Under the pieces are notes generated by a model that saw nothing but the letters and a program-made list of their open reading frames with translations, did not search any database and had not been told where the DNA came from. From contig QAYZ01000012.1 of assembly GCA_003054655.1 (NCBI GenBank), positions 1 to 64,000 of the forward strand: a DNA stretch of 64,000 nt, read 5' to 3'. The stretch is from Spartobacteria bacterium LR76 (GTDB taxonomy: Bacteria; Verrucomicrobiota; Verrucomicrobiia; Chthoniobacterales; Terrimicrobiaceae). A program made the position numbers and the translations under genes. Below are positions 24,009-56,536 of this stretch, piece by piece. How positions within the stretch are numbered: the stretch's first letter is position 1; every line of letters starts with the position of its first letter.

Positions 24009-24536
24009 ATGTCCGCTCTCGAATCGCTCCGCGATAAACTTCCCGAGGCCGCCAAGGACCTCAAACTCAACCTTCAGGCCATCCTCCGGCCGGAAAATCT
24101 CACCCAGGACCAGGTCTGGGGCTGCGTGCTCGCCAGCGCCTTTTTCCTCGGCGACGAAGCCCTCACCCTCGCTCTCGTCGAGGAAGGCCGCGCCAATGGC
24201 GTGACCGAGGAACTCCTCGACGACGCCCGCGCTGCCGCGTCGATCATGGGAATGAATACGGTGTACTACCGCTTCCGCCATCTGGTGGAAAAGGAGTCGT
24301 ACAATGCCATCCCGCCGCGCCTGCGCATGATGCGCATGAGCCAGCTCAAGACCGACAAGGCCACGTTTGAGCTCATGTCGATGTCCTGCGCCGCGCTCGC
24401 CGGCTGCGGCATGTGCCTCAAGGCGCATGAGGCCACCCTGCTCCAGCACGGCATCACCGAGGCGGGAGTCAATGACTCGATCCGCATCGCTGCCGTCCTC
24501 AGCGGCGTGAAAATCGCCCTGAGCATCCCCGCTTAA
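24009..24536 (+). CDS. ahpD: AhpD-like alkylhydroperoxidase (carboxymuconolactone decarboxylase family)
   Basis: A 175-residue all-helical protein with the AhpD redox motif AGCGMCLKAHE (Cys133, Cys136, His140). In mycobacteria AhpD relays electrons from lipoylated carriers to AhpC; a similar role is likely here given the upstream ahpC. Length and the second helical layer (residues 1-100) match AhpD. The ATG follows directly after a hairpin with no visible Shine-Dalgarno. Confidence 0.88.
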   Translation: MSALESLRDKLPEAAKDLKLNLQAILRPENLTQDQVWGCVLASAFFLGDEALTLALVEEGRANGVTEELLDDARAAASIMGMNTVYYRFRHLVEKESYNAIPPRLRMMRMSQLKTDKATFELMSMSCAALAGCGMCLKAHEATLLQHGITEAGVNDSIRIAAVLSGVKIALSIPA

Positions 24537-24560
24537 CCCGCGAGGAAATTCCTTCCGCGT

Positions 24561-24588
24561 CTTCCCGGTTTCTCTCGAAGCCGGGAGG
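24561..24588. terminator. Hairpin between convergent genes
   Basis: An 11-base-pair stem including GU pairs (24561-24571 with 24578-24588) and a six-base loop lies between the convergent ahpD and antitoxin genes. No T-tract follows on either strand, so termination is weakly supported. Confidence 0.35.
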
Positions 24589-24617
24589 GCGATAGGATCG
24601 AATCTTTAAAAGTGACG

Positions 24618-24977
24618 TTAAGCTGCCTTGATCGCAGCCCTTCGGGATTTCGTTTTGAGTGCAGGTGTCAAACGGCTTGCAACCTTGACCGTATGAAGGG
24701 CTTTTAAAACGGTTTTCGGGCTCTGAGCAGCAACCATCAAAAGCGCTTTTGCTGCACCTTCCGGTTCGCGTCGTTTCTGCTCCCAGTTTTGAATTGTGCG
24801 AGCACTCACCCCAATCATAAGGGCAAACTCCGACTGGCTTAACCCAAGTCCATCCCGGATTTTCTGAACGTCAGGAACAACGATTTTGGTGACCCTTGCG
24901 GCCTTGCGATTGCCTCGTCGGATCTCTCCAGCCTGTTTGATGCTGGCTACCAGTTCCGCAAAGTCTTCCGTCTTCAT
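24618..24977 (-). CDS. HTH-domain antitoxin of a RelE/HigB-type module
   Basis: A 119-residue protein with a central XRE-type helix-turn-helix: VQKIRDGLGLSQSEFALMIG followed by VSARTIQNWEQKRREPEGAA (about residues 38-77). The C-terminal ~35 residues are basic (LKTKSRRAAIKAA). It is translated by ATGA overlap with the upstream toxin gene, the toxin-first order of HigBA-like modules. The antitoxin likely binds the inverted repeat upstream of the toxin gene to autoregulate. Confidence 0.85.
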   Translation of the reverse strand: MKTEDFAELVASIKQAGEIRRGNRKAARVTKIVVPDVQKIRDGLGLSQSEFALMIGVSARTIQNWEQKRREPEGAAKALLMVAAQSPKTVLKALHTVKVASRLTPALKTKSRRAAIKAA

Positions 24978-32646: not shown

Positions 32647-32689
32647 AACGCCCGTGTGGTCTTGTTATGACTGCACGGGCGTTTTTTTT
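32647..32689 (+). terminator. Intrinsic terminator of the efflux operon
   Basis: A ten-base-pair stem aacgcccgtg/cacgggcgtt (32647-32656 with 32674-32683) with a 17-base loop runs into an uninterrupted T-tract (eight Ts from 32682). It sits 22 bases after the RND pump stop and cleanly separates the efflux operon from the exopolysaccharide island. Confidence 0.9.
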
Positions 32690-32705: not shown

Positions 32706-32722
32706 CTGGCACGGCTGCTGCT
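32706..32722 (+). promoter_or_regulatory. Sigma-54 (RpoN) promoter for the exopolysaccharide island
   Basis: The sequence CTGGCACGGCTGCTGCT matches the sigma-54 consensus YTGGCACGrNNNTTGCW at every defined position except one (C for the first T of the -12 element), with correct GG/GC spacing. Transcription would start near 32733, giving an ~150-base leader before the first gene at 32884. It lies directly after the efflux-operon terminator. A sigma-54-dependent activator would be required; none is encoded in the window. Confidence 0.7.
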
Positions 32723-32883: not shown

Positions 32884-33552
32884 ATGAAAAAGGGCAAATT
32901 GTTAAAGGTTTTAACGGCGAGTTTGATACTGGTGGCCGCGAATGTGACCGCTGTTCAGGCGCAGAATCAGAGTCCGGCGGTGGCATCCGCCCTGGCGCAG
33001 GCGAAGGCGAATCCCTCGCAGGCGGCGGCCATTGCGGCTGCTGCGGCGAAGGCGAATCCCTCGCAGGCGGCCGCCATTGCCGCGGCCGTGGCGGCGGCCT
33101 TTCCTGCGGCGGCGGCGTCCATCGCATCGAGCGTGGCGGCGGCGGTTCCATCGGCGGCGGCGTCTGTCGCCGGGTCGGTGGCGGCGGCAGTACCTTCCGC
33201 AGCAGCCGCGGTGGCAGGCGCTGTGGCGACAGCCGTGCCGTCATCTGCGGCTGGTGTTGCCGGAGCGGTAGCGGCCGCTGTACCCGCCGCGGCATCAGCG
33301 GTGCAGTCAGCCGTCGTGTCCGCTGTTCCGTCTGCGGCCGCCGCGATCGCTTCGGCCATCGCGGGAGCCGTCTCCGGCGGCAGCGGAGGGGGGCCGGGAG
33401 GTGCGCCAGGATCAGGCTCCACCACGTCCAATCCTTCCAATTTCAGTTCCAGTGCTTCGCCGACGCCGACCCCGCGACCGTCAGCAAGCCCAACTCCAAC
33501 TCCGGTCCCGACGCCTACCCCCACGCCGACGCCTGCTTCGCCCTCTTTCTAG
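32884..33552 (+). CDS. Secreted Ala-rich protein of nine 15-residue repeats with Pro/Thr tail
   Basis: A 222-residue protein of unknown function. A signal peptide (MKKGKLLKVLTASLILVAAN...) likely ends at AVQA-Q near residue 26. Residues 32-166 form nine tandem 15-residue units of the type AAxVAxAVAxAVPSA; most end in a Pro-Ser/Ala turn, the first two in ANPSQ. The unit predicts short Ala/Val helices separated by Pro turns. A Gly/Ser-rich stretch (~167-190) and a Thr-Pro-rich tail (SPTPTPRPSASPTPTPVP...) follow. The ATG at 32884 is chosen because it begins the signal peptide; the open frame extends upstream without conserved features. First gene after the sigma-54 promoter, so probably an extracellular or matrix component of the polysaccharide system (inference). 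Confidence 0.75.
   Translation: MKKGKLLKVLTASLILVAANVTAVQAQNQSPAVASALAQAKANPSQAAAIAAAAAKANPSQAAAIAAAVAAAFPAAAASIASSVAAAVPSAAASVAGSVAAAVPSAAAAVAGAVATAVPSSAAGVAGAVAAAVPAAASAVQSAVVSAVPSAAAAIASAIAGAVSGGSGGGPGGAPGSGSTTSNPSNFSSSASPTPTPRPSASPTPTPVPTPTPTPTPASPSF
32977..33381 (+). repeat. Nine-copy 45-bp degenerate tandem repeat (protein-coding)
   Basis: The DNA encoding residues 32-166 of the Ala-rich protein consists of nine in-frame 45-base units. The units are diverged at DNA level (GCG, GCC, GTG and GTA codons vary), but the residue pattern is kept, so selection on protein structure rather than very recent slippage is likely. The first two units are the most alike, sharing AKANPSQ. Confidence 0.8.
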
Positions 33553-33582: not shown

Positions 33583-35061
33583 ATGAACCATATCAATCGT
33601 ACGGAGGGCGATCACGCTCTCCCGAATCCGCTTGAGGTAGAGAAAGCACCCGGCATAGGTGCGGGCTTGCGCGGGCAGATCCTGACGACAGGGCTGGCCC
33701 TTGGGCTGATTGCCGCTGTCACGGGCACTGTCAGCCTGTCGTTTGCCCAAACGATCAATCCGACCCAGCCCGGAGCCACGACGGATCCGATCCCGAGCGC
33801 ACAGACGCGTGATCTTTTTCGTCCGCTGGCACCGTCGACTCCCGGCGAGAACCTGGGTAATGAAGCGGCCGCAGCGGCGGTAGCGCCCCTGCAGCCGACG
33901 CCGGAGGCAGTGCCTGACACCGAGACGGGAGTGGGGGCCGATATTGACGCATCCGCTCCGCCGGTGGAGATCGACGGGAAAGCCGCGGCCGAGGCCCAGC
34001 GGCGCCTCTGGCGCATCCGGCCCAAGGCTGGTGCGGCCATGGTCTACGACGACAATATCTTCATCAGCAACACGAATCGCGTGGCCGATGTGATCTGGAG
34101 CGTCACGGCGGGGCTAGCCTTCGAGTTGGGCGATTACCGCAACCTGAAGGAAAACTTCCTCATCGCCGAGTGGTACGGCACGGGTTACTTTTACACGCAG
34201 AACCCCCAGCAGAATGCCTTCAATCAGGCGGCTGCTCTTCTCGGGCAGTATCGCTGGAGCAAGCTGACCGGACAGGTGGAGAGCCGATACCAGTACCTGA
34301 CTGGTCCGGATCGCGAGGTCGGAGCGTTCACGGACCGCCAGTTGTTCGTAAACGCGCTCCGTTTCAACTACGACTACAGCGACAAGACCACGTTTGACGC
34401 CGAGTTTCTGCAGAATACGCAGGTCTTCAAATCCTACCTGAACCAATACGATTATCGCCTGAAGCTCGGCGGTGACTACCGCATCCTGCCCAAGGTGAAG
34501 CTGGGCGGGGAGGGAGTCGCGGGCATCCTCAATGTCGAAGACAGTCCCCTGCAGTATTACCAGCAGCTCCGGGCGCGCCTCCGCTACGAGGCCACCGGGA
34601 AGCTGGCATTCAAGGTCAGCGGCGGTATCGAGTTTCGTCAGTTCCAGGGAATGTCGGAGGTGAAGCTCGAGCCGGTCTTTTCCTTGGGTCTGGAGTATAA
34701 GCCCTTTGACGGAACCTTGATCAGCCTCACGGGATATCGCGATGTGATCGGGTCCAACTCCCTTGAGGGGCAAAACTATGTCGCGACGGGCGTGCAATTC
34801 TCCATCCAGCAGCGAGTGCTTCAGAAGTTCTTCGTCGGCGTCGCTATTGGATACGAAAACGACACCTACTTTGCGACCGAGTCGAATATCGATTCCAGCC
34901 GCGTGGACAACTACATCTTCGCCCGTCCTTCGATCAGCTACAATGTGGCCGAGTGGGCCAAGACCGGGGTCTTTTACGAGTATCGCAACAACGACTCAAA
35001 TGAAAGCAGCAGCAGCTTCTATGACAATCGTATCGGCGTGGAACTGAACCTCACATTCTAG
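33583..35061 (+). CDS. Outer-membrane beta-barrel protein of the polysaccharide export system
   Basis: A 492-residue protein. After an atypical long N-terminus, a hydrophobic signal-like segment GQILTTGLALGLIAAVTGTV lies at about residues 31-50, followed by SLSFA-Q. A Pro/Ala-rich linker (~60-135) precedes a barrel region from KAGAAMVYDDNIF onward, rich in alternating aromatic strands. The protein ends in VELNLTF, the C-terminal Phe typical of BamA-inserted barrels. Such BBP2-like barrels accompany exopolysaccharide operons. GAGGGA eight bases before the ATG supports the start. It lies between the repeat protein and the Wza-like gene and probably forms or lines the export pore. Confidence 0.8.
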   Translation: MNHINRTEGDHALPNPLEVEKAPGIGAGLRGQILTTGLALGLIAAVTGTVSLSFAQTINPTQPGATTDPIPSAQTRDLFRPLAPSTPGENLGNEAAAAAVAPLQPTPEAVPDTETGVGADIDASAPPVEIDGKAAAEAQRRLWRIRPKAGAAMVYDDNIFISNTNRVADVIWSVTAGLAFELGDYRNLKENFLIAEWYGTGYFYTQNPQQNAFNQAAALLGQYRWSKLTGQVESRYQYLTGPDREVGAFTDRQLFVNALRFNYDYSDKTTFDAEFLQNTQVFKSYLNQYDYRLKLGGDYRILPKVKLGGEGVAGILNVEDSPLQYYQQLRARLRYEATGKLAFKVSGGIEFRQFQGMSEVKLEPVFSLGLEYKPFDGTLISLTGYRDVIGSNSLEGQNYVATGVQFSIQQRVLQKFFVGVAIGYENDTYFATESNIDSSRVDNYIFARPSISYNVAEWAKTGVFYEYRNNDSNESSSSFYDNRIGVELNLTF

Positions 35062-35103: not shown

Positions 35104-35694
35104 ATGAAAAGTCTTACCGGTGTACTGATGGTGGCGAGCCTCCTTGTCGGCGGCCTGGCGAGCGCCCCGGCGCAATCGAGCGAGGATTCGTCGAACTACA
35201 GGCTTACCGCCAACGACCTGCTGGACTTCCGTGTATTTCAGGAACCCGAACTCGACGCGGTGATCCGTTTGTCGGGCGACGGGACTGCCTCCTTTCCCCT
35301 GGTCGGAAATGTGACGATCGGCGGAAAGACTGTCAGCGAGGCCGTGGATATCCTCAAGGCCCGCTACAGGGACGGCTATCTCGTCAGTCCGCAGGTAAGT
35401 CTCACCGTTCGCACCTATGCCAAGCAGCGGTTTACCGTGCTCGGGCAGGTGCAAAAACCCGGAGCCTATGAAATGCAGGGCACCGAGGCAGTCAGCCTGC
35501 TTCAGGCTATCGGTCTGGCCGGAGGCTATACCCGCATCGCCGATCCGTCGAATATCACGGTGAAGCGGCGGGAAAGTGACGGAAAGGAGCGGGTGATCCG
35601 ATTTAACGCCAAGCGTATGGCCAAGGGAGGGGACGACGCATCCTTCATGTTAAAGGCTGGAGACGTCGTATCGGTTGGGGAGTCGTTATTTTGA
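35104..35694 (+). CDS. Polysaccharide export protein (Wza-like, SLBB domain)
   Basis: A 196-residue periplasmic protein. The signal peptide (~1-24) ends near ASAPAQ. A Poly_export domain follows with YRLTANDLLDFRVFQEPELD and GDGTASFPLVGNVTIGGKT, then one SLBB domain with FTVLGQVQKPGAYEMQG and LLQAIGLAGGYTRIADPSNI. It is far shorter than E. coli Wza (~380 aa) and lacks its C-terminal helical barrel, so the outer-membrane pore is probably supplied by the beta-barrel protein encoded just upstream. No lipobox cysteine is seen. Confidence 0.9.
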   Translation: MKSLTGVLMVASLLVGGLASAPAQSSEDSSNYRLTANDLLDFRVFQEPELDAVIRLSGDGTASFPLVGNVTIGGKTVSEAVDILKARYRDGYLVSPQVSLTVRTYAKQRFTVLGQVQKPGAYEMQGTEAVSLLQAIGLAGGYTRIADPSNITVKRRESDGKERVIRFNAKRMAKGGDDASFMLKAGDVVSVGESLF

Positions 35695-35755: not shown

Positions 35756-38053
35756 ATGGTTAACAAAGGTGCTGAGAATAAGGACAGGAAGTCAGCGGCT
35801 CAGGTGACGCTTTTGCGCGAGCTCAGCGGGGAGGTAATTGATTTTGAAAGGCTGCTCAATCTTCTCCGAGCCAGGGCGTGGCTGGTCATCGTCGTTGCGG
35901 TCATCTTTTTTGCGGCGGCATTTGCGTACGCCCTGAGATCACCGAAGATCTACGAGTCGAGGGCTCTCATCCAGGTGGAGCAGGCGAGTCAGAACGTGGT
36001 GGACATCGATGACATTGCGCGGGAGAACCCGCAGACCACGGACTTTGTCAATACGGTCGTGCAGGCCCTGACCAGCCGAAAGCTGATGCTGCGGGTGGTG
36101 AAGGCGACCGGCCTGGATCACAATCCGGAGTTTGCCCCTCCGCGTTCAAATGGCGGGAAATACACGGATATCGAGCTGGCGGATCGTCTCGCGTCGAAGG
36201 TCTCGGCCAAGCTGCGCCGCGGCACGCGATTGATCGAGCTGACGGTTGAGGACAAGAACCCGGAGCTGGCCCAGAAAATCGCATTTTCCATCGTGCGGGA
36301 GTTCCTGCGCGAGAACTTCGACCAGAAGCTGGCTCTTTCCCGGGTCGCCAATGAATTCCTGCAGGAGGAGTCGGAGAAGCTCAAGGCGAAGCTGGAGACA
36401 TCGGAGCGAAAGCTCCAGGCCTACCGCGAGCAGAACAAGGCGGTTTCGCTGGAGGAAAGGCAGAATATCATCGTCGAAAAGCTGCGTGAACTGAACACGA
36501 AGGTCACCGAGGCCAAGAGCAAGCGGCTGCAGCTCGAGGCCGACATCGAGCAGCTCAAGCGAGTGGAAAAGGCCAATGTGGATGAACTTTTGTCCATCAA
36601 CAGCGTAAGCCAGCTCCCGCATGTGGCGGTGATCCGCGAGCAGCTCGTCAGCGCCGAGGCCGAGCTGGCAGCCTTGAAGGATCGCTATCTGCCAAAGCAT
36701 CCCAAGTACATTGCCGGAGTGACCCGCATCGCCAATCTCAAGCAGGCGCTGGATAGTGAAGTCAAACAGGCGGGCGAGACGCTCAGCCGGCTCTACGAGG
36801 CCTCCCGGGAATCGGAGATGAAGCTGGAGACCGCGCTGCAGGAGCAGGAAGAAAGGGCTCTGGAACTCGACAAGGTCGCCATTCCCTACAACGTTCTCCA
36901 GCGTGATGTGGAGTCGGACCGTGCCCTTTACGAGTCTGTCACGAAGCGGCTCAAGGAGACCGCGATCACGCAGGGAGTCGAGCAGCCTCCGTTCCGGATC
37001 ATCGAGGAGCCGATGGTTCCGAGCGCTCCGGCGAAGCCCCGGGTAAAGGTGATCCTGGCCGCCGGGCTGTTGCTTGGCGTGATGGCCGGGGTCGGACTCG
37101 TTTTTGTCCTGGATCTGCTCGATCATTCGTTGCGCACGGTCGACGAGGCGGAGAGTTTTCTCGACCTGCCCGCCCTGGCAGCCATTCCGGAGAAAAGGAT
37201 CGAGACGGTCTTGAATCAGGTCGGCGAGGCGATCCGGGAGAAGAAGCTTTCAAAAATTCCCCAGGAGATCGCGGGCAAAGGCGTCGTTGAACCCGTGCGC
37301 AAATTTCTTAATGCCCGGGAAGCCACCGCACAGGCCAAGCGCCACCCTCTCGTCTTCATCGATGATCCCGCCTCGCTGCAGGCCGAGGCCATTCGCACGC
37401 TGCGGACCTCCCTTTCCCTGCTGGGAAAACAGGAGACGCGCCGGACCTTCCTCTTTGCCAGCTCCATCCCCGAGGAAGGAAAGACCTTTACCTCGCTCAA
37501 CTTCGCGCATTCCCTCGCCCAGCAGGGATTGCGCACGGTCATCATCGACGCCGACCTGCGAAAGCCGCGTCTGAAAGCCGACCTGCTCCCGGAGGAAGGC
37601 GATATCTCCGGACTGACCAACTACCTGAGCGGCACGGCGACACTGACGGAGGTGGTGAAAAAGACGCCGTACGAAAACCTGTTTCTCCTTCCCGGGGGCC
37701 ATCGGGCGCCCAACCCGGCGGAGCTGCTGAACGAGGACGATTTCCAAAAGATGCTGGATGAGTTGCTGAAATCCTATGATCGGATCGTGGTGGATACCGC
37801 GCCGGTGAATGCGGTGAGCGATGTGCTGCTGATCGCAAACTGCATCCAGACGACCTGCCTGGTCGTGCACGCCGGGAGGACGCCGAAAAAGGCGGTGCTC
37901 CGAGCCGTTCGGCAACTGCAGAAGACGGGCGCGCGGCTGGGCGGCTTCGTTTTCAATCGGCTGCCCGTCGGGGGGCAAAGCGCAGGCTACTACTACTATT
38001 ACTACGGAGGAGATTACGCGAAGAACGGCGTCTATGGAGCCAAGGCCGGCTGA
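35756..38053 (+). CDS. Polysaccharide co-polymerase / tyrosine autokinase (Wzc-like)
   Basis: A 765-residue bacterial tyrosine kinase with a Wzz domain. First membrane helix ~40-62, long periplasmic coiled coil (~170-400), second helix ~425-450, then a cytosolic BY-kinase. Walker A is ASSIPEEGKTFTS, Walker A' VIIDADLRKPRL, and Walker B RIVVDTAPV. The C-terminal tail has a tyrosine cluster of six consecutive Tyr (745-750) plus Tyr754 and Tyr760, the autophosphorylation sites typical of Wzc. It controls chain length and export with the Wza-like protein. No Wzb-type phosphatase is encoded nearby. Confidence 0.93.
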   Translation: MVNKGAENKDRKSAAQVTLLRELSGEVIDFERLLNLLRARAWLVIVVAVIFFAAAFAYALRSPKIYESRALIQVEQASQNVVDIDDIARENPQTTDFVNTVVQALTSRKLMLRVVKATGLDHNPEFAPPRSNGGKYTDIELADRLASKVSAKLRRGTRLIELTVEDKNPELAQKIAFSIVREFLRENFDQKLALSRVANEFLQEESEKLKAKLETSERKLQAYREQNKAVSLEERQNIIVEKLRELNTKVTEAKSKRLQLEADIEQLKRVEKANVDELLSINSVSQLPHVAVIREQLVSAEAELAALKDRYLPKHPKYIAGVTRIANLKQALDSEVKQAGETLSRLYEASRESEMKLETALQEQEERALELDKVAIPYNVLQRDVESDRALYESVTKRLKETAITQGVEQPPFRIIEEPMVPSAPAKPRVKVILAAGLLLGVMAGVGLVFVLDLLDHSLRTVDEAESFLDLPALAAIPEKRIETVLNQVGEAIREKKLSKIPQEIAGKGVVEPVRKFLNAREATAQAKRHPLVFIDDPASLQAEAIRTLRTSLSLLGKQETRRTFLFASSIPEEGKTFTSLNFAHSLAQQGLRTVIIDADLRKPRLKADLLPEEGDISGLTNYLSGTATLTEVVKKTPYENLFLLPGGHRAPNPAELLNEDDFQKMLDELLKSYDRIVVDTAPVNAVSDVLLIANCIQTTCLVVHAGRTPKKAVLRAVRQLQKTGARLGGFVFNRLPVGGQSAGYYYYYYGGDYAKNGVYGAKAG

Positions 38054-38298
38054 TCCGGCGTGCACAAGCATCCTTTGCGGAGAAGACAATACGATATGCC
38101 CAGATTGGGAGAAGAGCTTTACCTGCATGGTCTGGAACATGGTTCCAGGCCAGGGGCGGCAGCGTGTCCTGGCGAGCAAGATGGACGAGGAAGAGATTTC
38201 CTTCAGCCCTTAGGACGGAGCATAGACATGTTTTTACCCCTTTTTGCAACCGGTGGCTCAAGCCGAAAACAGAAAGCATCAACGAGTGGGAGGGTAGA

Positions 38299-39810
38299 AT
38301 GAGCGGATCCACTTTGACAGGCGAACCGAAGCCTGAGGTCCGGGAAAAAGAGACCGAGGTTTACTCGCGATTTGTGCCGCGGGAGACCCGGCATCGCTAT
38401 GAGGAGATATGTCGCTTCAGCCTGGTTCTGACCGACGCGATCTCGATCATTGGCGGTCTCGTGGCGGCCTTTTACCTCCGGTTCCTCCTCCCGCAGAACG
38501 TCTTTCCCGAGGGCTGGCTGTTCGCGCCGGATGAGGCCGTGACCATCAAGTATTACCTCCAGAGCATGGTGCTCGGCGGGAGCCTGCTGGTTGCGCTGTT
38601 TCTCTTCGGGCGTGCGTATCAAGGCAATACGCTTTTGCGATTTCGGCGGTCCTTTCCGATCATAGTGAAGGCGCTGCTGATCTGGCTGATTGTATTTCCC
38701 GGCATCACGCTGGTGCTGGAGTTTGACGATCGAATCAGCCGGGTCTACGTGGTGGTTTCCTTTTTCAGCCTGATGACGACGGTGCTGCTGGGCCGGTTCA
38801 TCGTGCAGCGGCTGCTGAGCGCCTTTGGCTACACTGCGGCGTTCCGGCAGAGGCTGTTGTTTGTGGACTGGACAAAGAACTCGGAACGGCTCGCCGAAGC
38901 CATTTCGAGAGACCCATGGCATCCCTACGATGTGATCGGCTGTGCTCCGTCCTCGGCGAATCGATTTACTCAAAACCCGCCGCCACAGCTCCAGACCCTG
39001 GGGAGCTACAGCGAAGTGTCGGTTCTCGCCGAGCTTGGTCTGCTGGACATCGTCGTCCTGGCGGATGGGAATCGCAGCGAGCAGGATGTCATGGCGCTGG
39101 CCCGGGAGTGCGAGAAGAACATGGTGCAGTTCATGGTCATCCCGTCTGGATTTCAAATCCTGCTGTCTGGCCTGCAGCTCACGACGGTGAGCAGTGTGCC
39201 GCTGCTCGGGGTGACCCAGCTCCCGCTGGACTATCCCGTGAATGCGACGATGAAGCGCATCGTCGACATCTGCGGTGCGTTGTTTGGGTGCATGGTCAGC
39301 TTCCCCATCATCGCCGTCTTTGCCCTCCTCGTTTATTTGGAATCTCCCGGCCCGGTGTTTTATCGGCAGGTGCGCGTGGGACGCCGCGGGCGGAATTTCG
39401 AGATCATCAAGATCCGCAGCATGAAGCTCGATGCGGAAAAGGAGTCTGGTGCGCGCTGGGCCTCAAAAAGCGATGACCGACGATTGAAAATCGGCACGTT
39501 CATGCGCCGTTGGAATATTGATGAGCTGCCGCAATTCTGGAATGTGCTCAAGGGTGACCTCAGCCTCGTGGGTCCGCGCCCCGAGCGCCCGGAGTTGATC
39601 AAGCAGTTCCGCGAGACCGTTCCGTTTTACAATGCCCGCCATAATATCGTGCCGGGCATGACGGGCTGGGCTGCGGTAAACGGCTTCCGCGGCGACACGG
39701 ACCTGAACGAGCGCATCCGCTGCGATATCTACTACATCGAGAACTGGAGTCCGATCCTGGATCTCCAGATCATGCTCATGACGTTCTTTCGCTGGGAGGG
39801 TGCGGCATGA
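38299..39810 (+). CDS. Undecaprenyl-phosphate glycosyl-1-phosphate transferase (WbaP/WcaJ-like)
   Basis: A 503-residue priming transferase that puts the first sugar phosphate on undecaprenyl phosphate. About four or five N-terminal membrane helices precede a CoA-binding-like soluble domain, a further helix at ~320-345, and the bacterial sugar transferase domain: KRIVDICGALFGC, ESPGPVFYRQVRVGRRGR, KIRSM and LPQFWNVLKGDLSLVGPRPERPE. The ATG at 38299 has GGGAGGG seven bases upstream; longer in-frame starts look non-coding. The 245-base gap after wzc holds nothing else recognisable. Confidence 0.92.
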   Translation: MSGSTLTGEPKPEVREKETEVYSRFVPRETRHRYEEICRFSLVLTDAISIIGGLVAAFYLRFLLPQNVFPEGWLFAPDEAVTIKYYLQSMVLGGSLLVALFLFGRAYQGNTLLRFRRSFPIIVKALLIWLIVFPGITLVLEFDDRISRVYVVVSFFSLMTTVLLGRFIVQRLLSAFGYTAAFRQRLLFVDWTKNSERLAEAISRDPWHPYDVIGCAPSSANRFTQNPPPQLQTLGSYSEVSVLAELGLLDIVVLADGNRSEQDVMALARECEKNMVQFMVIPSGFQILLSGLQLTTVSSVPLLGVTQLPLDYPVNATMKRIVDICGALFGCMVSFPIIAVFALLVYLESPGPVFYRQVRVGRRGRNFEIIKIRSMKLDAEKESGARWASKSDDRRLKIGTFMRRWNIDELPQFWNVLKGDLSLVGPRPERPELIKQFRETVPFYNARHNIVPGMTGWAAVNGFRGDTDLNERIRCDIYYIENWSPILDLQIMLMTFFRWEGAA

Positions 39811-39894: not shown

Positions 39895-40662
39895 ATGAAT
39901 ATCACCTCATTGGGGCAAACCGGGTTTCTTATCGAGTCGGGAACGACTCGTGTGCTGGTGGACCCGTATCTTTACGACTCTGTGGCGGATACCTATGGCT
40001 CCGTCTTTGCCCGCATGGTGCCTGCTCCCCTGCCTCCCGAGGAGCTGACCGGCATCGATTGGATTCTCCTCACTCACGCCCATCTGGATCACACCGATCC
40101 GCAATCCCTGACGGCACTTCTCGCCGTTAATCCGCAGGTCAGGGTGATGGCTCCGCCGGAGTCGCGCGCCATCCTCGCGGATCTCGGCATCGCCGGGGTG
40201 ACGCCTCCCCCGATCGAGGCGACGCCACTCTCGGATGATCTTTGCGTGCGGAGCGTGCCTGCGGCGCATACGGAACTGCGCCGGGCGGAAAACGGGGAGG
40301 TGCAGGATTGCGGCTATCTGCTGAAAAGCAGCGACGGCCGGTCGGTCTATCACGCAGGCGATACGATCCCGCACGTCGAGATCTTTGCCAGCCTGGAGGG
40401 AGAGACAATCGATCTCGCCCTTTTGCCGGTCAACGAGCGCAATTTCTTCCGGGATGAGGCCGGCATCATTGGCAACATGTCCGTGCGCGAAGCCTTTCAA
40501 ATGGCGGACCGGTTGCAGGCCCGAGCTGTCACCCCGACGCATTGGGAGCTTTTTGCCGCCAACTCCACGCCACGCGAGGAGATCGAGATGGGCTATCGTA
40601 TTGCCTCGCCCTCGAGCCGCCTGGAGGTGATTGCGTCCGGGGAAACTCTTCAACTGACATAA
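39895..40662 (+). CDS. Metallo-beta-lactamase-fold hydrolase (UlaG-like)
   Basis: A 255-residue MBL-fold enzyme. It starts MNITSLGQTGFLIESG and has the metal motif THAHLDHTDP (His61, His63, Asp65, His66), AAHTELR, and HAGDTIPH. This resembles UlaG, a lactonase for L-ascorbate-6-phosphate, though substrates vary widely. No signal peptide, so cytosolic. One base separates it from the cytidylyltransferase gene; the pair probably acts in synthesis or housekeeping of an unusual activated sugar (inference). Confidence 0.8.
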   Translation: MNITSLGQTGFLIESGTTRVLVDPYLYDSVADTYGSVFARMVPAPLPPEELTGIDWILLTHAHLDHTDPQSLTALLAVNPQVRVMAPPESRAILADLGIAGVTPPPIEATPLSDDLCVRSVPAAHTELRRAENGEVQDCGYLLKSSDGRSVYHAGDTIPHVEIFASLEGETIDLALLPVNERNFFRDEAGIIGNMSVREAFQMADRLQARAVTPTHWELFAANSTPREEIEMGYRIASPSSRLEVIASGETLQLT

Positions 40663-40663
40663 A

Positions 40664-41338
40664 ATGATCGCACTCCTTCCGATGAAAGCGCACAGCGCGC
40701 GAGTCTCCGGCAAAAACTTCCGACCATTTGCGGGCAAACCGCTCTTCCGGTGGATTCTCGACACCCTCGTCAGTCTGCCCGAGATCGAGAAAGTCGTCAT
40801 CAATACGGACGCACGCGAGATCCTCGCCCAAAACGGGCTGACGGATGGCGGCAAGATCCTCATCCGGGATCGCAAGCCGGAGATCTGCGGTGATTTTGTC
40901 AGCATGAACCTGGTGCTCCAGGACGACATCGAAGCCATCGAGTCCGATGCCTACCTGATGACGCACACGACCAACCCGCTGCTGGGTGCTCCGACCATCG
41001 AGGGAGCCATCAGCGCCTTTCGCGACGCGCAGGCGGCAGGCGCGGCGGACAGTCTCTTCACGGTGAACAAGTTCCAGACCCGGTTTTACCGCGCGGATGC
41101 GAGTCCGGTGAATCACGATCCGAAGAACCTCATCCGCACCCAGGATCTGGAGCCCTGGTTCGAAGAGAATTCCAATCTCTACATTTTCACCCGGGAGAGC
41201 TTTGCAAAGACGCAGGCTCGCATCGGGGAACGTCCGCTGCTCTTCGAGACGCCGCGAGCCGAGTCGGCTGATATCGACGATCAAGAGGGCTGGGACATCG
41301 CCGAAATCATGGCGCTGGCGACGCTCAAGAAAGGATAG
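40664..41338 (+). CDS. Acylneuraminate-type cytidylyltransferase (CMP-sugar synthetase)
   Basis: A 224-residue nucleotidyltransferase of the CMP-NeuAc/CMP-Kdo synthetase family. The activation motif reads LLPMKAHSARVSGKNFRPFAGKPL (residues 4-27), a variant of the usual PARGGSKRIPxKN. HTTNPLL follows at about residue 105. It would make a CMP-activated sugar from CTP. No NeuB, NeuC or KdsA-like gene is in the window, so the sugar cannot be named. It begins one base after the MBL gene stop and is followed by a GT2 gene five bases on. Confidence 0.82.
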   Translation: MIALLPMKAHSARVSGKNFRPFAGKPLFRWILDTLVSLPEIEKVVINTDAREILAQNGLTDGGKILIRDRKPEICGDFVSMNLVLQDDIEAIESDAYLMTHTTNPLLGAPTIEGAISAFRDAQAAGAADSLFTVNKFQTRFYRADASPVNHDPKNLIRTQDLEPWFEENSNLYIFTRESFAKTQARIGERPLLFETPRAESADIDDQEGWDIAEIMALATLKKG

Positions 41339-41343
41339 GACAT

Positions 41344-42288
41344 ATGATGCTCGCGCAGGATTCCGCAGCTCTTACGCCTCGCCGCCCGGGATTCGCCGGG
41401 CCCATCCCCCTGGTGAGCATTATCATCCGAACATATAATGAATCGAAGCATCTCGGCGCGGCCTTGCGGGCCGTGGGCGTCCAGGCGATGGCCGGGCGTC
41501 CGCCGGTGGAGGTCATCGTGGTTGATTCCGGGTCGACTGATGGCACCCGGGAGATCGCACTCGCGGCGGGAGCCCGCGTGATCGGGATCGACAAGAGCGA
41601 GTTTACCTTTGGGCGTTCGCTCAACCGGGGCTGCGAAGCAGCGCGCGGGGAGTTCCTCGTCTTTATCAGCGGACACTGCATTCCGGTCGAAGAAAACTGG
41701 CTGGAGCAGATGATCGCTCCTTTTGCCGATCCCGGCATTGTGATGACCTACGGGCGGCAGGTCGGAGCCGAGACGACCAAGTTCAGCGAAGCCCGGGTCT
41801 ACGAGAAGTACTACCCGAATGGCCCGGCGAGCCAGTCCGAAATTTTTTGCAATAATGCCAACTGCGCCGTCCGCCGGTCGGTCTGGAGGAGGTTTCGCTT
41901 CGATGAAACCCTCACCGGACTCGAGGACATGGACCTGGGGCGCAAAGTCGTGGACGCTGGATTCCATATTGCCTATTCCCCCGGCGCGCCGGTGATTCAC
42001 ATTCACGACGAGACCTGGCCCCAGGTGCGGCGCCGCTACGAGAGGGAGGCCATCGCGCTGCGCCGGATTGCTCCGGAGTTTCACCTCAGCCCGATTGATG
42101 CGATCGGCTGCTTTCTGACGGGTGTCCTTCAGGACATGCTGGCGGCGCTCAAGAGTCCGGCTGCGTGGGGGCACATGGGTTCGATCGTGCTCTACCGCTT
42201 CAATCAATATCTGGGCAGTTGGCTGGGGGGACGTCCCCACCGCGAGCTCAGCCGCAAGGAAAAACTCCGTTACTTCTACCCTGTCTGA
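41344..42288 (+). CDS. Family 2 glycosyltransferase
   Basis: A 314-residue GT-A-fold transferase. It shows PLVSIIIRTYNESKHLGAAL, the nucleotide-binding VEVIVVDSGSTDGTREIA, a degenerate DxD region reading FISGHCIPVEENW, and the acceptor-side FDETLTGLEDMDLGRKVVDAG. A hydrophobic patch near ~240 suggests membrane association. GGATAGGA just upstream of the ATG is a good ribosome binding site. It lies in the middle of the CMP-sugar-like sub-cluster, nine bases before the dehydrogenase gene. Confidence 0.9.
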   Translation: MMLAQDSAALTPRRPGFAGPIPLVSIIIRTYNESKHLGAALRAVGVQAMAGRPPVEVIVVDSGSTDGTREIALAAGARVIGIDKSEFTFGRSLNRGCEAARGEFLVFISGHCIPVEENWLEQMIAPFADPGIVMTYGRQVGAETTKFSEARVYEKYYPNGPASQSEIFCNNANCAVRRSVWRRFRFDETLTGLEDMDLGRKVVDAGFHIAYSPGAPVIHIHDETWPQVRRRYEREAIALRRIAPEFHLSPIDAIGCFLTGVLQDMLAALKSPAAWGHMGSIVLYRFNQYLGSWLGGRPHRELSRKEKLRYFYPV

Positions 42289-42296
42289 CACCCTTC

Positions 42297-43226
42297 ATGA
42301 CCAAGATACTCTGTACCTGCCCTCCGATGATCCGCGCCATCGACTCGTTGCAAGACGAGTTCAGCCAACGCGACGCCGAGGTGTTTTGCCCCACCTTTCG
42401 CCAGGTAATGACGGAAGACGAACTCGTCGGCCTGGTGTCGGAATACGACGGCTGGATCATCGGCGATGATCCAGCGAGTGCACGGGTGCTCGAAGCCGGC
42501 CGGGCCGGGCGGCTGCGTGCCGCCGTGCGATGGGGCATCGGCACGGACAATGTGGATTTTGAGGCAGCGCGCGCGCTCGGTTTCGACATCACAAACACGC
42601 CAGGGATGTTCAACGAGGAGGTTTCCGATGTTGCACTCGGGTACGTGATCGGAGTGGCGAGGGATTTGTTCCTGATCGACCGCGGCGTGCGCGCCGGGGC
42701 GTGGCCCAAGCCGCCCGGCCTGTCGCTTTACGGCAAGACGGTGGCTCTGGCCGGATTTGGAAATATCGGTCGGTCTACGGCTCGCAAGCTTCTGGCGTTT
42801 GGAATGAAGGTCATCGCCTATGATCCTTTTTACAACCCGGTGGCGGACTTGCCCGTGGAGAATGCCGCCTGGCCCGAGCGTATCGAGGAGGCGGACTTTA
42901 TCGTCCTGACCTGTGCGCTGACCGAGTCGAGCCGGCACATGCTCGATGCGTCTGTCCTCGAGAAGGCCAAACCCGGCGTGCTGGTGGTGAATGTGGGCCG
43001 GGGTCCGCTGATCGACGAGCGGGCTTTGGGCGCGGCATTGGAATCCGGCAAGGTCGCCGCGGCGGCCCTGGATGTCTTCGAAGAGGAGCCGCTCCCGGAA
43101 GCATCGCCGTTGCGCGGCTTCGAACGCTGTATTTTCGGGTCGCACAATAGCTCGAACACCATCGAGGGAGTCCGGCGGACTTCGCAGCGCGCCATCGAAC
43201 TGCTCTTCGAGAGGCTCGGAGTCTGA
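42297..43226 (+). CDS. D-2-hydroxyacid dehydrogenase (phosphoglycerate-dehydrogenase-like)
   Basis: A 309-residue NAD-dependent dehydrogenase. The Rossmann motif is GFGNIGRSTARKL, the conserved Arg lies in RWGIGTDNVDFEAA, and the catalytic His region reads FGSHNSSNTIEG near the C-terminus. It lacks the ACT domain of housekeeping SerA. In this setting it may oxidise or reduce a hydroxyacid precursor of the activated sugar or a decorating acid; that is inference. The ATG at 42297 gives the conserved MTKILCTCPPM start. The SDR gene follows after two bases. Confidence 0.88.
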   Translation: MTKILCTCPPMIRAIDSLQDEFSQRDAEVFCPTFRQVMTEDELVGLVSEYDGWIIGDDPASARVLEAGRAGRLRAAVRWGIGTDNVDFEAARALGFDITNTPGMFNEEVSDVALGYVIGVARDLFLIDRGVRAGAWPKPPGLSLYGKTVALAGFGNIGRSTARKLLAFGMKVIAYDPFYNPVADLPVENAAWPERIEEADFIVLTCALTESSRHMLDASVLEKAKPGVLVVNVGRGPLIDERALGAALESGKVAAAALDVFEEEPLPEASPLRGFERCIFGSHNSSNTIEGVRRTSQRAIELLFERLGV

Positions 43227-43228
43227 TT

Positions 43229-43972
43229 ATGAAAGAAGCTGTCATCATCACAGGAGCCTTGGGCGGCATTGGGCGCGCCCTTTGCGAGGAGTTTCACGCT
43301 CATGGATTTTATGTCGTGGCCCTGGATCGCTCGGCTGGCTCCGTGGCTGCTCACGATGTGCGTCAATGCGATATCCGGGAGCTGGCGGTCGACGCTGGGA
43401 AGCGTCTGCGACTGGCCGAGGACATCGGAGCGTTGCTTGATGCGGAGGGCTGCGCGCTCGCGGGCCTGATCAACAATGCCGCGATCCAGATCCTCGGCGG
43501 AGTGACCACTTTGAGCGAGCGGCAGTGGAGGGAAACGCTGGAGACCAACCTGCTGGCGCCGTTCTTCCTCGCGCAGGCCTTCCTTCCCCGCCTGGAAGCC
43601 TCCCATGGTGCCGTCATCAACATATCGAGCATCCATGAGAAACTGACCAAGACCGGCTTCGTGGCATATGCCACCTCCAAGTCCGCATTGTCTGGACTCA
43701 CCCGAGCCATGGCTGTCGACCTCGGTTCTCGAGTGAGGGTGAATGCGATCTGCCCGGCAGCGATTCATACCCCGATGCTTGAGGCCGGATTTGCGGAAAA
43801 ACCGGAGGCGTTCACGGCCTTGCATGAGGCGCACCCCTCTGGTCGGATAGGCACTCCGGATGAGGTGGCTCAACTGGCGCGGTATCTGGTCTCGGACGCT
43901 CCCCCGTTCCTTACAGGCTCGTGCCTGGGGCTGGATGGCGGTATCGCGGGACGTCTCCACGACCCGGTGTAG
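43229..43972 (+). CDS. Short-chain dehydrogenase/reductase
   Basis: A 247-residue classical SDR. The cofactor motif is TGALGGIGRAL (residues 8-18), with INNAAIQ near 80, the Ser region in INISSIHEKL, and the catalytic YATSKSAL. The C-terminus reads FLTGSCLGLDGGIAG. It probably interconverts a ketone and hydroxyl on a sugar or acid intermediate, paired with the dehydrogenase two bases upstream. The 70 bases before the flippase gene hold nothing else convincing. Confidence 0.9.
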   Translation: MKEAVIITGALGGIGRALCEEFHAHGFYVVALDRSAGSVAAHDVRQCDIRELAVDAGKRLRLAEDIGALLDAEGCALAGLINNAAIQILGGVTTLSERQWRETLETNLLAPFFLAQAFLPRLEASHGAVINISSIHEKLTKTGFVAYATSKSALSGLTRAMAVDLGSRVRVNAICPAAIHTPMLEAGFAEKPEAFTALHEAHPSGRIGTPDEVAQLARYLVSDAPPFLTGSCLGLDGGIAGRLHDPV

Positions 43973-53265: not shown

Positions 53266-54555
53266 TTGGAAGGATCAGGCAAAACTGGTTCCCGGTTGGT
53301 CCTGGCGGGGCTGTGCGCGGTGATCTGCGGTGTCTCTGCTTCGGCAGGGTTCGCAGAACAAAAAGAGGCTCCGAGGAACCTGTCCGACTTCGTCCTGGGC
53401 TTCAACGCCCATAGCATTCAGGAACGGGATGCCCCCTTTCTCAAAGCCATCGGAATCCATCGGCTGAGACTGGATCTTGGCTGGAGATATGTCTCAGATG
53501 AAGGCGGAGTGGTCGACCCGGGCCATCGCGGTCTGCAATCCATCGTTGACGCCCCGGCCTGGATCGATGACCCGCTTGTCATACTGGGTTACGGGCACCC
53601 GGCATTTCAAAACGGCGGCCGTCCCTCAACTCCGGAGGCCAGGAGAGCCTACGTCGCATACGCGCTCGCCAGTGCAGAGAAGCTCCACTCCAAGACGAAG
53701 CTCTTCGAGGTATGGAACGAGTGGAACGTCGCGGGCATGGGACGCACGCCCATGGAGGAGGGTGTCGGCAAGCCCGAGGATTACGCAGCTCTGCTGGCGG
53801 AAACCTACGCCGCCTTGAAGGCACGCTTTCCCGATCTCGTTGTGCTCGGCGGTGCCATGGGCGGGATCGGAGCGGATGACGATTACCTGCCCAGAGCCAT
53901 AAAGGCCGGCATGCTCCGATCGCTGGATGGACTGTCGATCCATCCCTATTTTTATGGAGCGAAAGATCCGCTGCGGCTTCCCGAGATAGCGATTCCCGCG
54001 AGGATGTCGCAGCTCGCGGAGTGGTTGCAGGCTGCGCCGGGAGGAGCGGACACCCCTCTTTATGTGACGGAGTTGGGCTGGCCGACCTATGGGGAGGGAT
54101 TCGGAGTGACCCCCGACGAGCAGGCAGATTTCATGGTGCGCTCCGTCCTGTTGCTGGCGTGCTATCGGCAGGTCAGGGGCGTGTGGCTCTACGAATTCCG
54201 CGATAGCGGCCAGGCACCTGGTGAGCGAGAGCACCATTTTGGCATCGTCGCATCGGATGGGACGCCCAAACCGGCGTATCATCTCTTGGGAGAGGCGGCT
54301 TCCCTGTTGTCTCAGGCCCTCTCGATCGAGCGGATATCCAATCCCTCAGGAGATCGAGTCGTGACCATGCGATGCGCGATGAAGGATGGCTCGGAGGCAT
54401 GGATATGCTGGACCACCTATCCGGGAGAAACAGCGAGGGTTTCGCTCCGATCTGGAAGGGATGCATCCACCTGGCTGGAAAAGAATGCCGGAAATCGCCC
54501 AGTGATTCTCCGCGGCTCAAGCGGCGGGCTGATTGTCGTGGGAGAGAAATCATGA
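53266..54555 (+). CDS. Secreted GH39-like glycoside hydrolase (PslG type)
   Basis: A 429-residue protein with a signal peptide (VLAGLCAVICGVSASAGFA, ending near residue 30) and a TIM-barrel core. LFEVWNEWNV supplies the likely acid/base Glu152, and YVTELGWPTYGEGFG the likely nucleophile Glu269, as in clan-A endoglycosidases such as PslG. In Psl clusters such an enzyme trims or releases polysaccharide. The start is TTG, with no better in-frame option before the signal peptide. It lies among the biosynthesis genes, directly before the beta-helix gene. Confidence 0.8.
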   Translation: MEGSGKTGSRLVLAGLCAVICGVSASAGFAEQKEAPRNLSDFVLGFNAHSIQERDAPFLKAIGIHRLRLDLGWRYVSDEGGVVDPGHRGLQSIVDAPAWIDDPLVILGYGHPAFQNGGRPSTPEARRAYVAYALASAEKLHSKTKLFEVWNEWNVAGMGRTPMEEGVGKPEDYAALLAETYAALKARFPDLVVLGGAMGGIGADDDYLPRAIKAGMLRSLDGLSIHPYFYGAKDPLRLPEIAIPARMSQLAEWLQAAPGGADTPLYVTELGWPTYGEGFGVTPDEQADFMVRSVLLLACYRQVRGVWLYEFRDSGQAPGEREHHFGIVASDGTPKPAYHLLGEAASLLSQALSIERISNPSGDRVVTMRCAMKDGSEAWICWTTYPGETARVSLRSGRDASTWLEKNAGNRPVILRGSSGGLIVVGEKS

Positions 54556-54568
54556 CAGGGTCCTTCTG

Positions 54569-56536
54569 ATGACTGTTTCCCGCGCGAATGGCGGTTTTTC
54601 GAAGCCGCTCGATTGGTTGGTCCTGGTGGTTGCCATGGCGGTTTTGCCGTTCATCACGGAAGCTCACGCCAGGCCTCCAGGGAACGCGGCCTATCCGCCC
54701 CAGGTTGCCGCCTGGACGGAGGAGGAAATACAGCGTCAGCGTGCTTCTGCCAGTCAGTTGATCCTCGATATCGCCGCCGCGGTTGCCGCAGGGGAAAGGC
54801 GGTTTGTTGTTCCTCCCGGACAATATCGCTTCGGCCCGGGTGGCGCGGCAAATCTGCTCCTGAAAGGGGTCAGGGACTTTGAGCTCGATGCCGACGGGGC
54901 CACCTTCTGGCTTTACCCCTTTCAGCGTGTTGACGGCGTGGAGCTCCAGGACTGCGAGGACGTCACGATCAAGGGACTCACCATTGACTATTCCCCCATG
55001 CCCTGCTCCCAGGGAACGGTCACCGAGATCAACGCCGAAGCCGGGTACATCGAGTTCACCGTCGATACTGGTTTTCCGTTGCCGCTGGAGATCCGCAGCG
55101 GATCGGTCAATGCAAAGATCGTGCACTTTACGGAAAAAGGGAGCCTCCTGGCTTCACGGCTCGACTGGGTCAGGAAGGTCTCGGACTGTGGAAACGGAAG
55201 ATACCGGGTCTTTCCGAAGCATGGCTGGGTTTACAAAATCCCGGGCGACATCCGGCCTGGGACGCGCATCGCCCTGGCGGATCGCGCGATGCGGATGGCG
55301 GTCAACTTGTCGAACAGCTCACACTGCCGCCTTCAGGACATCACGATCTATGCGACGCCTCACATGGCGTTTACGGAATTCCTCGGGAAGGGCGGGCATG
55401 TCTACCAGGGGTGCCGGGTGATCCGGCGACCGGACACAAAACGATTGCTCGCGAGCAACGCCGATGTCTTCCACTCCGTCGGTGTCGAGGTCGGACCCAC
55501 GATTGAGCATTGCGAGTTCTCTTTTGCGGCGGACGATCTCGTGAACATCCACGGCCTCCTTGGGGTGACGCTGGAAAAGGCCGGCGCCGATCAGGCGGAG
55601 ATTGTCTCCCAGGCGGGTAAAGCTCCCGGCGTGGGAGAGGAGCTGCGATTTTATGATCGCGAGACATTTGCCCTCAAGGCGTCGGCAAAGATTGTCGAAA
55701 TCGGAAAGGTCGATGATGAAAGCCGCAGGAAGGCCGCCCAGGATATGATGGCAGGCGATCGCGTGGCGTTTATTCATCCCGCCGTAGTCTCGCGGGTGAT
55801 TCTGGATCGTCCGGTCGATGTCTCGCGACGGGATTATGTGGTGAGCGATGAACGGGTCGCGAGAGGTACGGTGATCCGGAATAATAATTTCCATGACTGC
55901 TACACGCGCGGGATACTTTTGAAATGCGCCGACGGGCGCATCGAGCGCAATCGGATCGACAACATGGGGATCAGCTCGATCGGAGTCGCGCTGGACGCCC
56001 ATTTTATGGAAGCTCCGTCTCCATCGGATATCGTCATATCCGGAAATCTCATCACCCGGAACGGGTTTTGTAATTTTGTCAGCGGCACCGGGTGGAACTA
56101 CCTGATCGGTGCGATATCGGTAACGAACGAGCTGGGTTCCGGACTGCCGCAGGGGCCAGTCATGGAAAATATCCGTATTTCCGGAAACACCATTCGCAAT
56201 ACAGCGACCATCGGCATCCTTTTGACCAATGTCGCTGGCGGCGAGATCGTCGACAATACGATCGAAGGCTTTTTGGATTCGACTGCGCAGGAGTTTTCCG
56301 GCGTTTTTGGCGGGCGAATGAAACTTTCAGAGCCCTTTCATGCCATTGTCATCGCACGGAGCGAGCATATCCGGCTGGAACGCAACACGATCAAGTTCCC
56401 GGGTCGGCGTGCTCTGGGAGCGATAGCGTTTCACGGGAATGTTTCGGCGGGTCCGCAAAAGCCCGATATCTGGAGAGAGCGCCCTCTCCCCGGGAAGATC
56501 CCTCCATCATCAAGCGGTGAGAAAGGCACACCGTAG
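54569..56536 (+). CDS. Secreted right-handed parallel beta-helix protein
   Basis: A 655-residue protein with an N-terminal signal (LDWLVLVVAMAVLPFITEAHA) and an extended parallel beta-helix of short repeats, for example NLLLKGVRDFELDADGATFWL, VIRNNNFHDCYTRGILLK, NIRISGNTIRNTATIGILL and EIVDNTIEGF. Such proteins act as polysaccharide lyases, epimerases (AlgG-like) or surface adhesins; no catalytic residue set could be assigned. The ATG at 54569 lies 13 bases after the hydrolase stop. It overlaps no neighbour and precedes the ligase-like gene by four bases. Confidence 0.8.
   Translation: MTVSRANGGFSKPLDWLVLVVAMAVLPFITEAHARPPGNAAYPPQVAAWTEEEIQRQRASASQLILDIAAAVAAGERRFVVPPGQYRFGPGGAANLLLKGVRDFELDADGATFWLYPFQRVDGVELQDCEDVTIKGLTIDYSPMPCSQGTVTEINAEAGYIEFTVDTGFPLPLEIRSGSVNAKIVHFTEKGSLLASRLDWVRKVSDCGNGRYRVFPKHGWVYKIPGDIRPGTRIALADRAMRMAVNLSNSSHCRLQDITIYATPHMAFTEFLGKGGHVYQGCRVIRRPDTKRLLASNADVFHSVGVEVGPTIEHCEFSFAADDLVNIHGLLGVTLEKAGADQAEIVSQAGKAPGVGEELRFYDRETFALKASAKIVEIGKVDDESRRKAAQDMMAGDRVAFIHPAVVSRVILDRPVDVSRRDYVVSDERVARGTVIRNNNFHDCYTRGILLKCADGRIERNRIDNMGISSIGVALDAHFMEAPSPSDIVISGNLITRNGFCNFVSGTGWNYLIGAISVTNELGSGLPQGPVMENIRISGNTIRNTATIGILLTNVAGGEIVDNTIEGFLDSTAQEFSGVFGGRMKLSEPFHAIVIARSEHIRLERNTIKFPGRRALGAIAFHGNVSAGPQKPDIWRERPLPGKIPPSSSGEKGTP

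Follow-up and report, generated by a model that had tools for sequence, protein, structure and literature searches.

The window analysed here, a 64,000-nucleotide stretch of contig QAYZ01000012.1 from Spartobacteria bacterium LR76, carries a polysaccharide locus whose first gene encodes a secreted protein built largely of 15-residue repeats (Table 1). A probable terminator closes the RND efflux operon on its upstream side, so that the repeat gene would open a new transcription unit. In this unit the putative export barrel begins 30 bases past the stop codon of the repeat gene, the gene for the short OPX protein follows the barrel after 42 bases, and that for the Wzc-type regulator follows after a further 61. 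Glycosyltransferases and an O-antigen-ligase-type (Wzy_C) protein lie beyond the sugar-phosphate transferase. A metallo-beta-lactamase-fold protein, a cytidylyltransferase, a 2-hydroxyacid dehydrogenase and an SDR are clustered at window positions 39895-43972 and may make a CMP-activated acidic sugar; beside the Wzy_C gene, positions 54533-56536 encode a protein of the right-handed beta-helix type (Beta_helix/NosD) that may be a polymer-modifying or lyase-like enzyme.

Table 1. Features of the repeat gene and of the export locus that it opens, with positions counted in the window.
Feature	Position	Strand	Basis
Inverted repeat and T-run, probable terminator of the upstream RND efflux operon	32648..32689	+	Sequence; second arm and T-run conserved in both same-genus genomes
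Sigma-54-type -24/-12 site TGGCACGGCTGCTGCT (GG-N10-GC)	32707..32722	+	Same place in three same-genus genomes
Gene of 222-aa secreted helical-repeat protein	32884..33552	+	ATG 32884 to stop 33552; selection, orthologues
Sec-type signal peptide, likely cleavage VQA/QN (between A and Q), without lipobox cysteine	32884..32961	+	Read from sequence only
Nine 15-residue repeats (residues 32-166)	32977..33381	+	Sequence; AlphaFold (nine 14-residue helices, one-residue breaks)
Gly/Ser linker, predicted disordered	33373..33429	+	Sequence; AlphaFold pLDDT about 40
Tail NPSNFSS...Thr-Pro...ASPSF	33430..33549	+	Resembles NPAN(I/V)S...(V/I)SPE tails upstream of homologous barrels
Outer-membrane beta-barrel (BBP2_2 / TIGR03016-like), putative EPS export pore	33583..35061	+	PF10082 E 2e-5, above cut-off; TIGR03016 E 3.7e-13, below cut-off
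Short OPX, 196 aa, Poly_export (PF02563) and one SLBB ending at residue 191, D1D2 type like EpsY	35104..35694	+	
Wzc-type chain-length regulator (PCP) / tyrosine autokinase	35756..38053	+	
Initiating sugar-phosphate transferase (Bac_transf)	38164..39810	+	

The original prediction had placed the repeat gene just upstream of an export barrel, as the gene spacing bears out, and had made it the first gene after a sigma-54 promoter. The latter claim stands within the genus: the site is conserved there, and rpoN is present in the window genome. Over the order, sigma-54-type sites upstream of homologous barrels were not enriched (23 found at 84 loci versus 20.6 expected), so we regard sigma-54 control as a genus-level feature and have dropped the promoter as a property of the order. 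The Rfam search of the 5' region gave nothing near a gathering score.

Residues 32-166 of the protein divide exactly into nine 15-mers, with proline at positions 44, 59, 74, 89, 104, 119, 134 and 149; the ninth repeat ends in SGG and lacks the proline. Across the 27 repeats of three genomes, columns 1 and 11 are alanine throughout, column 13 is proline in 24, and columns 4, 8 and 12 are mostly isoleucine or valine. Half of the repeat residues are alanine (68 of 135); there is a single phenylalanine, no tryptophan or tyrosine, and only two charged residues among the 135. The signal sequence, MKKGKLLKVLTASLILVAANVTAVQA, is the only hydrophobic segment of the protein, and its tail reads NPSNFSSSASPTPTPRPSASPTPTPVPTPTPTPTPASPSF. 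The description given in the original prediction (a secreted protein of nine 15-residue Ala/Val repeats, followed by a Gly/Ser region and a Thr-Pro tail, of no recognised family) thus holds in each of its parts, the last because Pfam (up to E 1) and NCBIfam returned no match to the protein, including FecR (PF04773), TPR/HEAT and other repeat families. Comparison of the protein with genome contigs and plasmids found no relatives. Direct searches against relatives gave many weak matches from Thr-Pro or Ala-rich stretches alone, which were disregarded unless the architecture agreed, and designed toroids, internalin K and spidroin, which matched by profile, were set aside as compositional similarity.

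Long spurious frames on both strands compete with the repeat frame, and a different translated frame would have undone the reading from which we started. Both same-genus genomes carry an orthologue (88% and 85% identity) with nine repeats each. The codon changes relative to these two congeners fall mostly at third positions (21/9/69 and 26/15/86 at positions 1/2/3), and dN/dS is 0.13-0.14 over the whole gene, 0.10-0.11 in the repeats and 0.12-0.14 in the tail, all of which upholds the annotated frame. In the public metagenome-assembled genome of Verrucomicrobia bacterium SCN18 (JAFKMU01; G001 in our labelling, in which G denotes a genome, L a locus, g a genus and f a family), the barrel is 85% identical and the open frame starts just seven codons ahead of the conserved ATG, making ATG 32884 the likely start. 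At the DNA level each repeat resembles its orthologous repeat in a congener (identity 0.79-0.81) more than the other repeats (about 0.55), which indicates that the array is old, with its number fixed at nine and no re-making by duplication. The full-length repeat gene is present as a single copy in its genome. Judged by these patterns of substitution, 32884-33552 is a real, conserved and translated gene.

The repeats are predicted to form a short-helix alpha-solenoid, or rod, of nine Ala-rich helices. The structure prediction that had been proposed for the protein, an AlphaFold run with 17 related rows, placed short helices at residues 31-42, 44-57, 59-72, 74-87, 89-102, 104-117, 119-132, 134-147 and 149-163 with pLDDT 93-97, and left the linker and tail disordered. 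A relative from family f8, of ordinary charged composition, was modeled likewise as a short-helix stack, mostly at pLDDT >95, with a disordered tail. For neither protein did Foldseek report anything in the PDB at E 0.001 or better, and VIA-align returned mainly designed helical repeats, with Z scores of 8.1-10.8 for the window protein and up to 13.4 for the f8 relative, a range common for helical repeats; on both counts the solenoid remains a prediction. In its short helices and single-residue breaks the predicted fold resembles alpha-solenoids (TPR, HEAT) and designed repeats (DHR54, DHR4, 8cws), but its unit is a single 15-residue helix, whereas that of TPR and HEAT proteins is a hairpin of 34-40 residues.

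Does the protein have counterparts elsewhere? Homologues had been expected at other polysaccharide loci, and a survey of gene neighborhoods found related proteins in the equivalent position in further genera and families. Across five families of the order, and in one case outside it, a small secreted protein is encoded directly before a homologous barrel. Among the 84 barrel loci surveyed in the order, 24 have a tail-bearing upstream protein by a count that was made by eye and is subjective; about 60 have none, some because contig ends cut the locus and many truly so, and the protein is therefore not essential to all such translocons. In the sister genus g2 (G019, G014, G007), a signal, a FecR domain (Pfam E 2.8e-7 to 3.4e-10), many 15-residue repeats and a Thr-Pro tail ending VSPSA, VSPSF or VSPSR make up one protein upstream of a homologous barrel, OPX and Wzc. 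The f13 proteins (L081, L151, L162) share the 15-residue repeat of the window protein and have SPHF or VSRSY at their C-terminus. Families f4 and f8 place a secreted protein of 193-257 residues with short helical repeats before the barrel, most with tails of the form NPAN(I/V)S...(V/I)SPE or near it (L082, L084, L087, L088, L089, L132, L136, L146), with the variants NPANVS...VVSQFK at L091 and SPANTS...NSPE at L128. At L082, L084, L087, L088, L089 and L091 a gene for a probable FecR-like lipoprotein lies directly before this protein; its FecR match is weak in Pfam (E 4.5e-4 to 0.011 in the three tested) and reaches 91.7% (E 7.7e-7) by profile comparison. The f6 upstream protein has the tail and lacks the Ala repeats; at L174, L176, L177 and L179 it is FecR-like by profile comparison (87.4%, E 3.7e-6), and Pfam did not report FecR in the f6 proteins of L174, L176 or L170.

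Proteins of related layout also occur in other settings. In g2, FecR-repeat paralogues are found away from polysaccharide loci; at L040:9276-11335, L042:9203-11190 and L046:9237-11368 each precedes a conserved secreted protein of roughly 175 residues (..ADPVEFxVGAFxFxRPxGWxW..) without a Pfam match, and the two may form a conserved pair. The only FecR-domain gene of the window genome (L207:1063-2912; G000 C2 near 96150) encodes a Pro-rich tail and adjoins another outer-membrane barrel-like gene, an arrangement like that in the polysaccharide loci of relatives; ahead of the export barrel itself, the window genus keeps just the repeat body. In genus g5, L038 (G006:C24 near 24076-24654) encodes a signal, a helical protein, a Gly/Ser region and a Thr-Pro tail in a similar layout; G006 has no homologous barrel locus at the cut-off used. 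At L039:9954-12446 and L041:10510-12921, the sister-genus barrel frame is lengthened at its N-terminus by a conserved stretch of some 330-380 residues ahead of a hydrophobic segment; this stretch may represent either a fused domain or a distinct gene that is read through. A similar open stretch precedes the barrel in L078.

Profile comparison connects the window protein to f13 (93.5%, E 2.4e-7) and f13 to f4/f8 (85%, E 5.9e-6), and the direct link between the window protein and f4/f8 is weak (15%, E 0.0017), so that the bridge goes via f13. All three links exceeded locally shuffled controls in 60 of 60 trials, a control by column shuffling that leaves room for convergence of two unrelated 15-residue amphipathic helical repeats. 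For this reason we consider the repeat bodies probably homologous among the window protein, f13 and g2, and possibly so in f4/f8. Searched over 286 genomes of the class irrespective of position, the f4/f8 profile recovered, beyond its two training loci, a second copy in G028 and a protein in G032, each followed by a TPR-bearing Wzy_C protein and then a barrel (L200, L201; the L201 barrel by profile, E 6.6e-13, that of L200 by appearance only and without a Pfam match). Its other finds were a protein encoded immediately ahead of a barrel and Wzc in a different family of the class (L203), a credible match near a contig end (L202) and two further matches that are probably noise.

The window protein shares with its counterparts across the order secretion, a place directly upstream of the barrel and a C-terminal NP-x-N...SP-[E/S/H] motif, which was defined by eye and partly on the same set. 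This tail pattern occurs in 13 of 77 upstream-adjacent frames versus 21 of 1811 frames overall (the 13 included), an enrichment that is biased and shows consistency only, because the pattern is degenerate and was picked by eye after part of the data had been seen. Both halves of the tail are found in just one of the 285 window frames of at least 100 residues, the repeat gene itself. The final SPSF stands in a low-complexity Thr-Pro context; NPSNF does not, and is invariant in three congeners.

Which known systems does the locus resemble? To our knowledge, no helical-repeat partner has been associated with the EpsX/EpsY or VpsM/VpsN systems. Composite OPX/beta-barrel translocons are established export systems, exemplified by EpsX/EpsY of Myxococcus xanthus and VpsM/VpsN of Vibrio cholerae (PMC9601211, PMC9603273), and the window's barrel, short OPX with one SLBB and Wzc-type PCP match what the former report describes for EpsX/EpsY. 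The OPX protein falls in the short class (<=280 aa, Poly_export plus SLBB) and, by sequence reading, lacks a C-terminal outer-membrane helix, and the barrel gene is closely coupled to it. PMC9603273 makes no mention of Verrucomicrobi-, FecR, alanine-rich or conserved hypothetical, and neither the repeat nor FecR at such loci turned up in our literature search. FecR-domain secreted proteins (PF04773; Leptospira LipL45/Lsa33 type) offer a second comparison, since the same-place proteins of the sister genus fuse FecR to similar repeats and tail, but the window protein has no FecR domain. Likewise, the window barrel matches TIGR03016, below the cut-off, as in PEP-CTERM/exosortase-linked EPS systems, but the repeat protein ends ...ASPSF and has neither a PEP-CTERM tail nor a C-terminal hydrophobic segment.

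What the families have in common, then, is a signal, a tail and a position immediately ahead of the export barrel; the body varies between a short-helix solenoid, a FecR-type domain and a combination of the two. This constancy of place, signal and tail around a varying body makes a periplasmic, tail-docking translocon accessory the best explanation, and the finding of FecR and repeats fused or adjacent supports a joint function of the two modules. We propose, with about even confidence, that the window protein is a periplasmic accessory, a scaffold or spacer, of a composite OPX/barrel translocon on which it docks by its tail. The protein would be kept in the periplasm, with the solenoid standing next to the OPX ring and barrel as a rigid spacer or scaffold, and the extended Thr-Pro linker could let the terminal NP-x-N...SP-x-x motif dock on the barrel or the OPX protein. 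FecR-type domains, fused or encoded next door in relatives, may be an alternative or additional envelope-facing module of the accessory. In the window genus, the sigma-54-type promoter suggests that the accessory and the export machine are probably co-expressed.

Three roles had been entertained at the outset: a structural matrix protein, a surface fibre and a periplasmic spacer. The spacer fits best, since the conserved setting is a barrel/OPX pair and FecR-type modules replace the repeat or are fused to it; for matrix protein and surface fibre we found no positive evidence beyond the signal peptide. An exported structural protein, made together with the polymer, whose Ala/Val helices self-associate and whose Thr-Pro tail forms a glycosylated or matrix-binding stalk, would account for the signal, the nearly uncharged repeats, the tail and the shared operon with EPS genes, and the composition is silk-like, down to a weak match to an aciniform spidroin profile (E 0.028) that probably reflects composition only. 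Such a protein would need to cross the outer membrane, however, and no route is visible, neither a sorting tail nor a secretion-system partner; its f4/f8 relatives are charged and not fibre-like, and in the sister genus the repeats follow a FecR domain within one fused protein. Repeat number tends to be variable in fibre proteins, whereas all three species here have nine. As a signal peptide alone does not decide location, we grant a matrix or surface role a minor but real share of probability. Less probable still is a periplasmic polymer-handling factor, in which the solenoid would bind or shield nascent polysaccharide between the inner membrane and the OPX protein as the TPR helices of synthase-dependent systems do: the predicted helical-repeat fold and the TPR-bearing Wzy_C proteins that sit between repeat protein and barrel at L200 and L201 speak for it, but the Ala-dominated repeats, with so few aromatic or charged residues, offer none of the usual sugar-binding groove residues, and Foldseek gave no significant structural relative.

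The FecR domains in the equivalent proteins of relatives, together with the sigma-54-type promoter in the window genus, could also point to an envelope-stress or assembly sensor, a remnant of a FecR-type signaling protein that reports the state of the translocon to a sigma-54 activator. We think this very unlikely, as the window protein itself has neither FecR nor a hydrophobic segment besides the signal, and the promoter is not conserved in the order. The suspicion that the frame is a low-complexity or mis-called open reading frame without function arises naturally in Ala-rich, GC-rich sequence, which yields long spurious frames on both strands, and is the least credible of all: purifying selection specific to the frame leads us to reject it, and repeat number, promoter and tail are conserved in three species.

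What would a periplasmic translocon accessory mean beyond the window? The relatives found at the same place in many Verrucomicrobia suggest a so far undescribed helper of the export machine. More tentatively, and below even confidence, we propose that they constitute an undescribed class of accessories in Verrucomicrobia, with a conserved docking tail and an interchangeable body (a solenoid of single 15-residue helices, a FecR-type domain, or both fused), which would set the distance within, or the assembly of, the OPX/barrel translocon. Export systems that pair a barrel with a short OPX protein have been described only recently, and we know of no settled account of how the periplasmic partners keep hold of the barrel. 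A genetically linked, conserved protein whose tail is shared and whose body can be exchanged would be a concrete candidate for this function. In addition, a naturally occurring repeat whose unit is one 15-residue helix, and whose best matches to date are designed proteins, may provide a useful minimal model of an alpha-solenoid.
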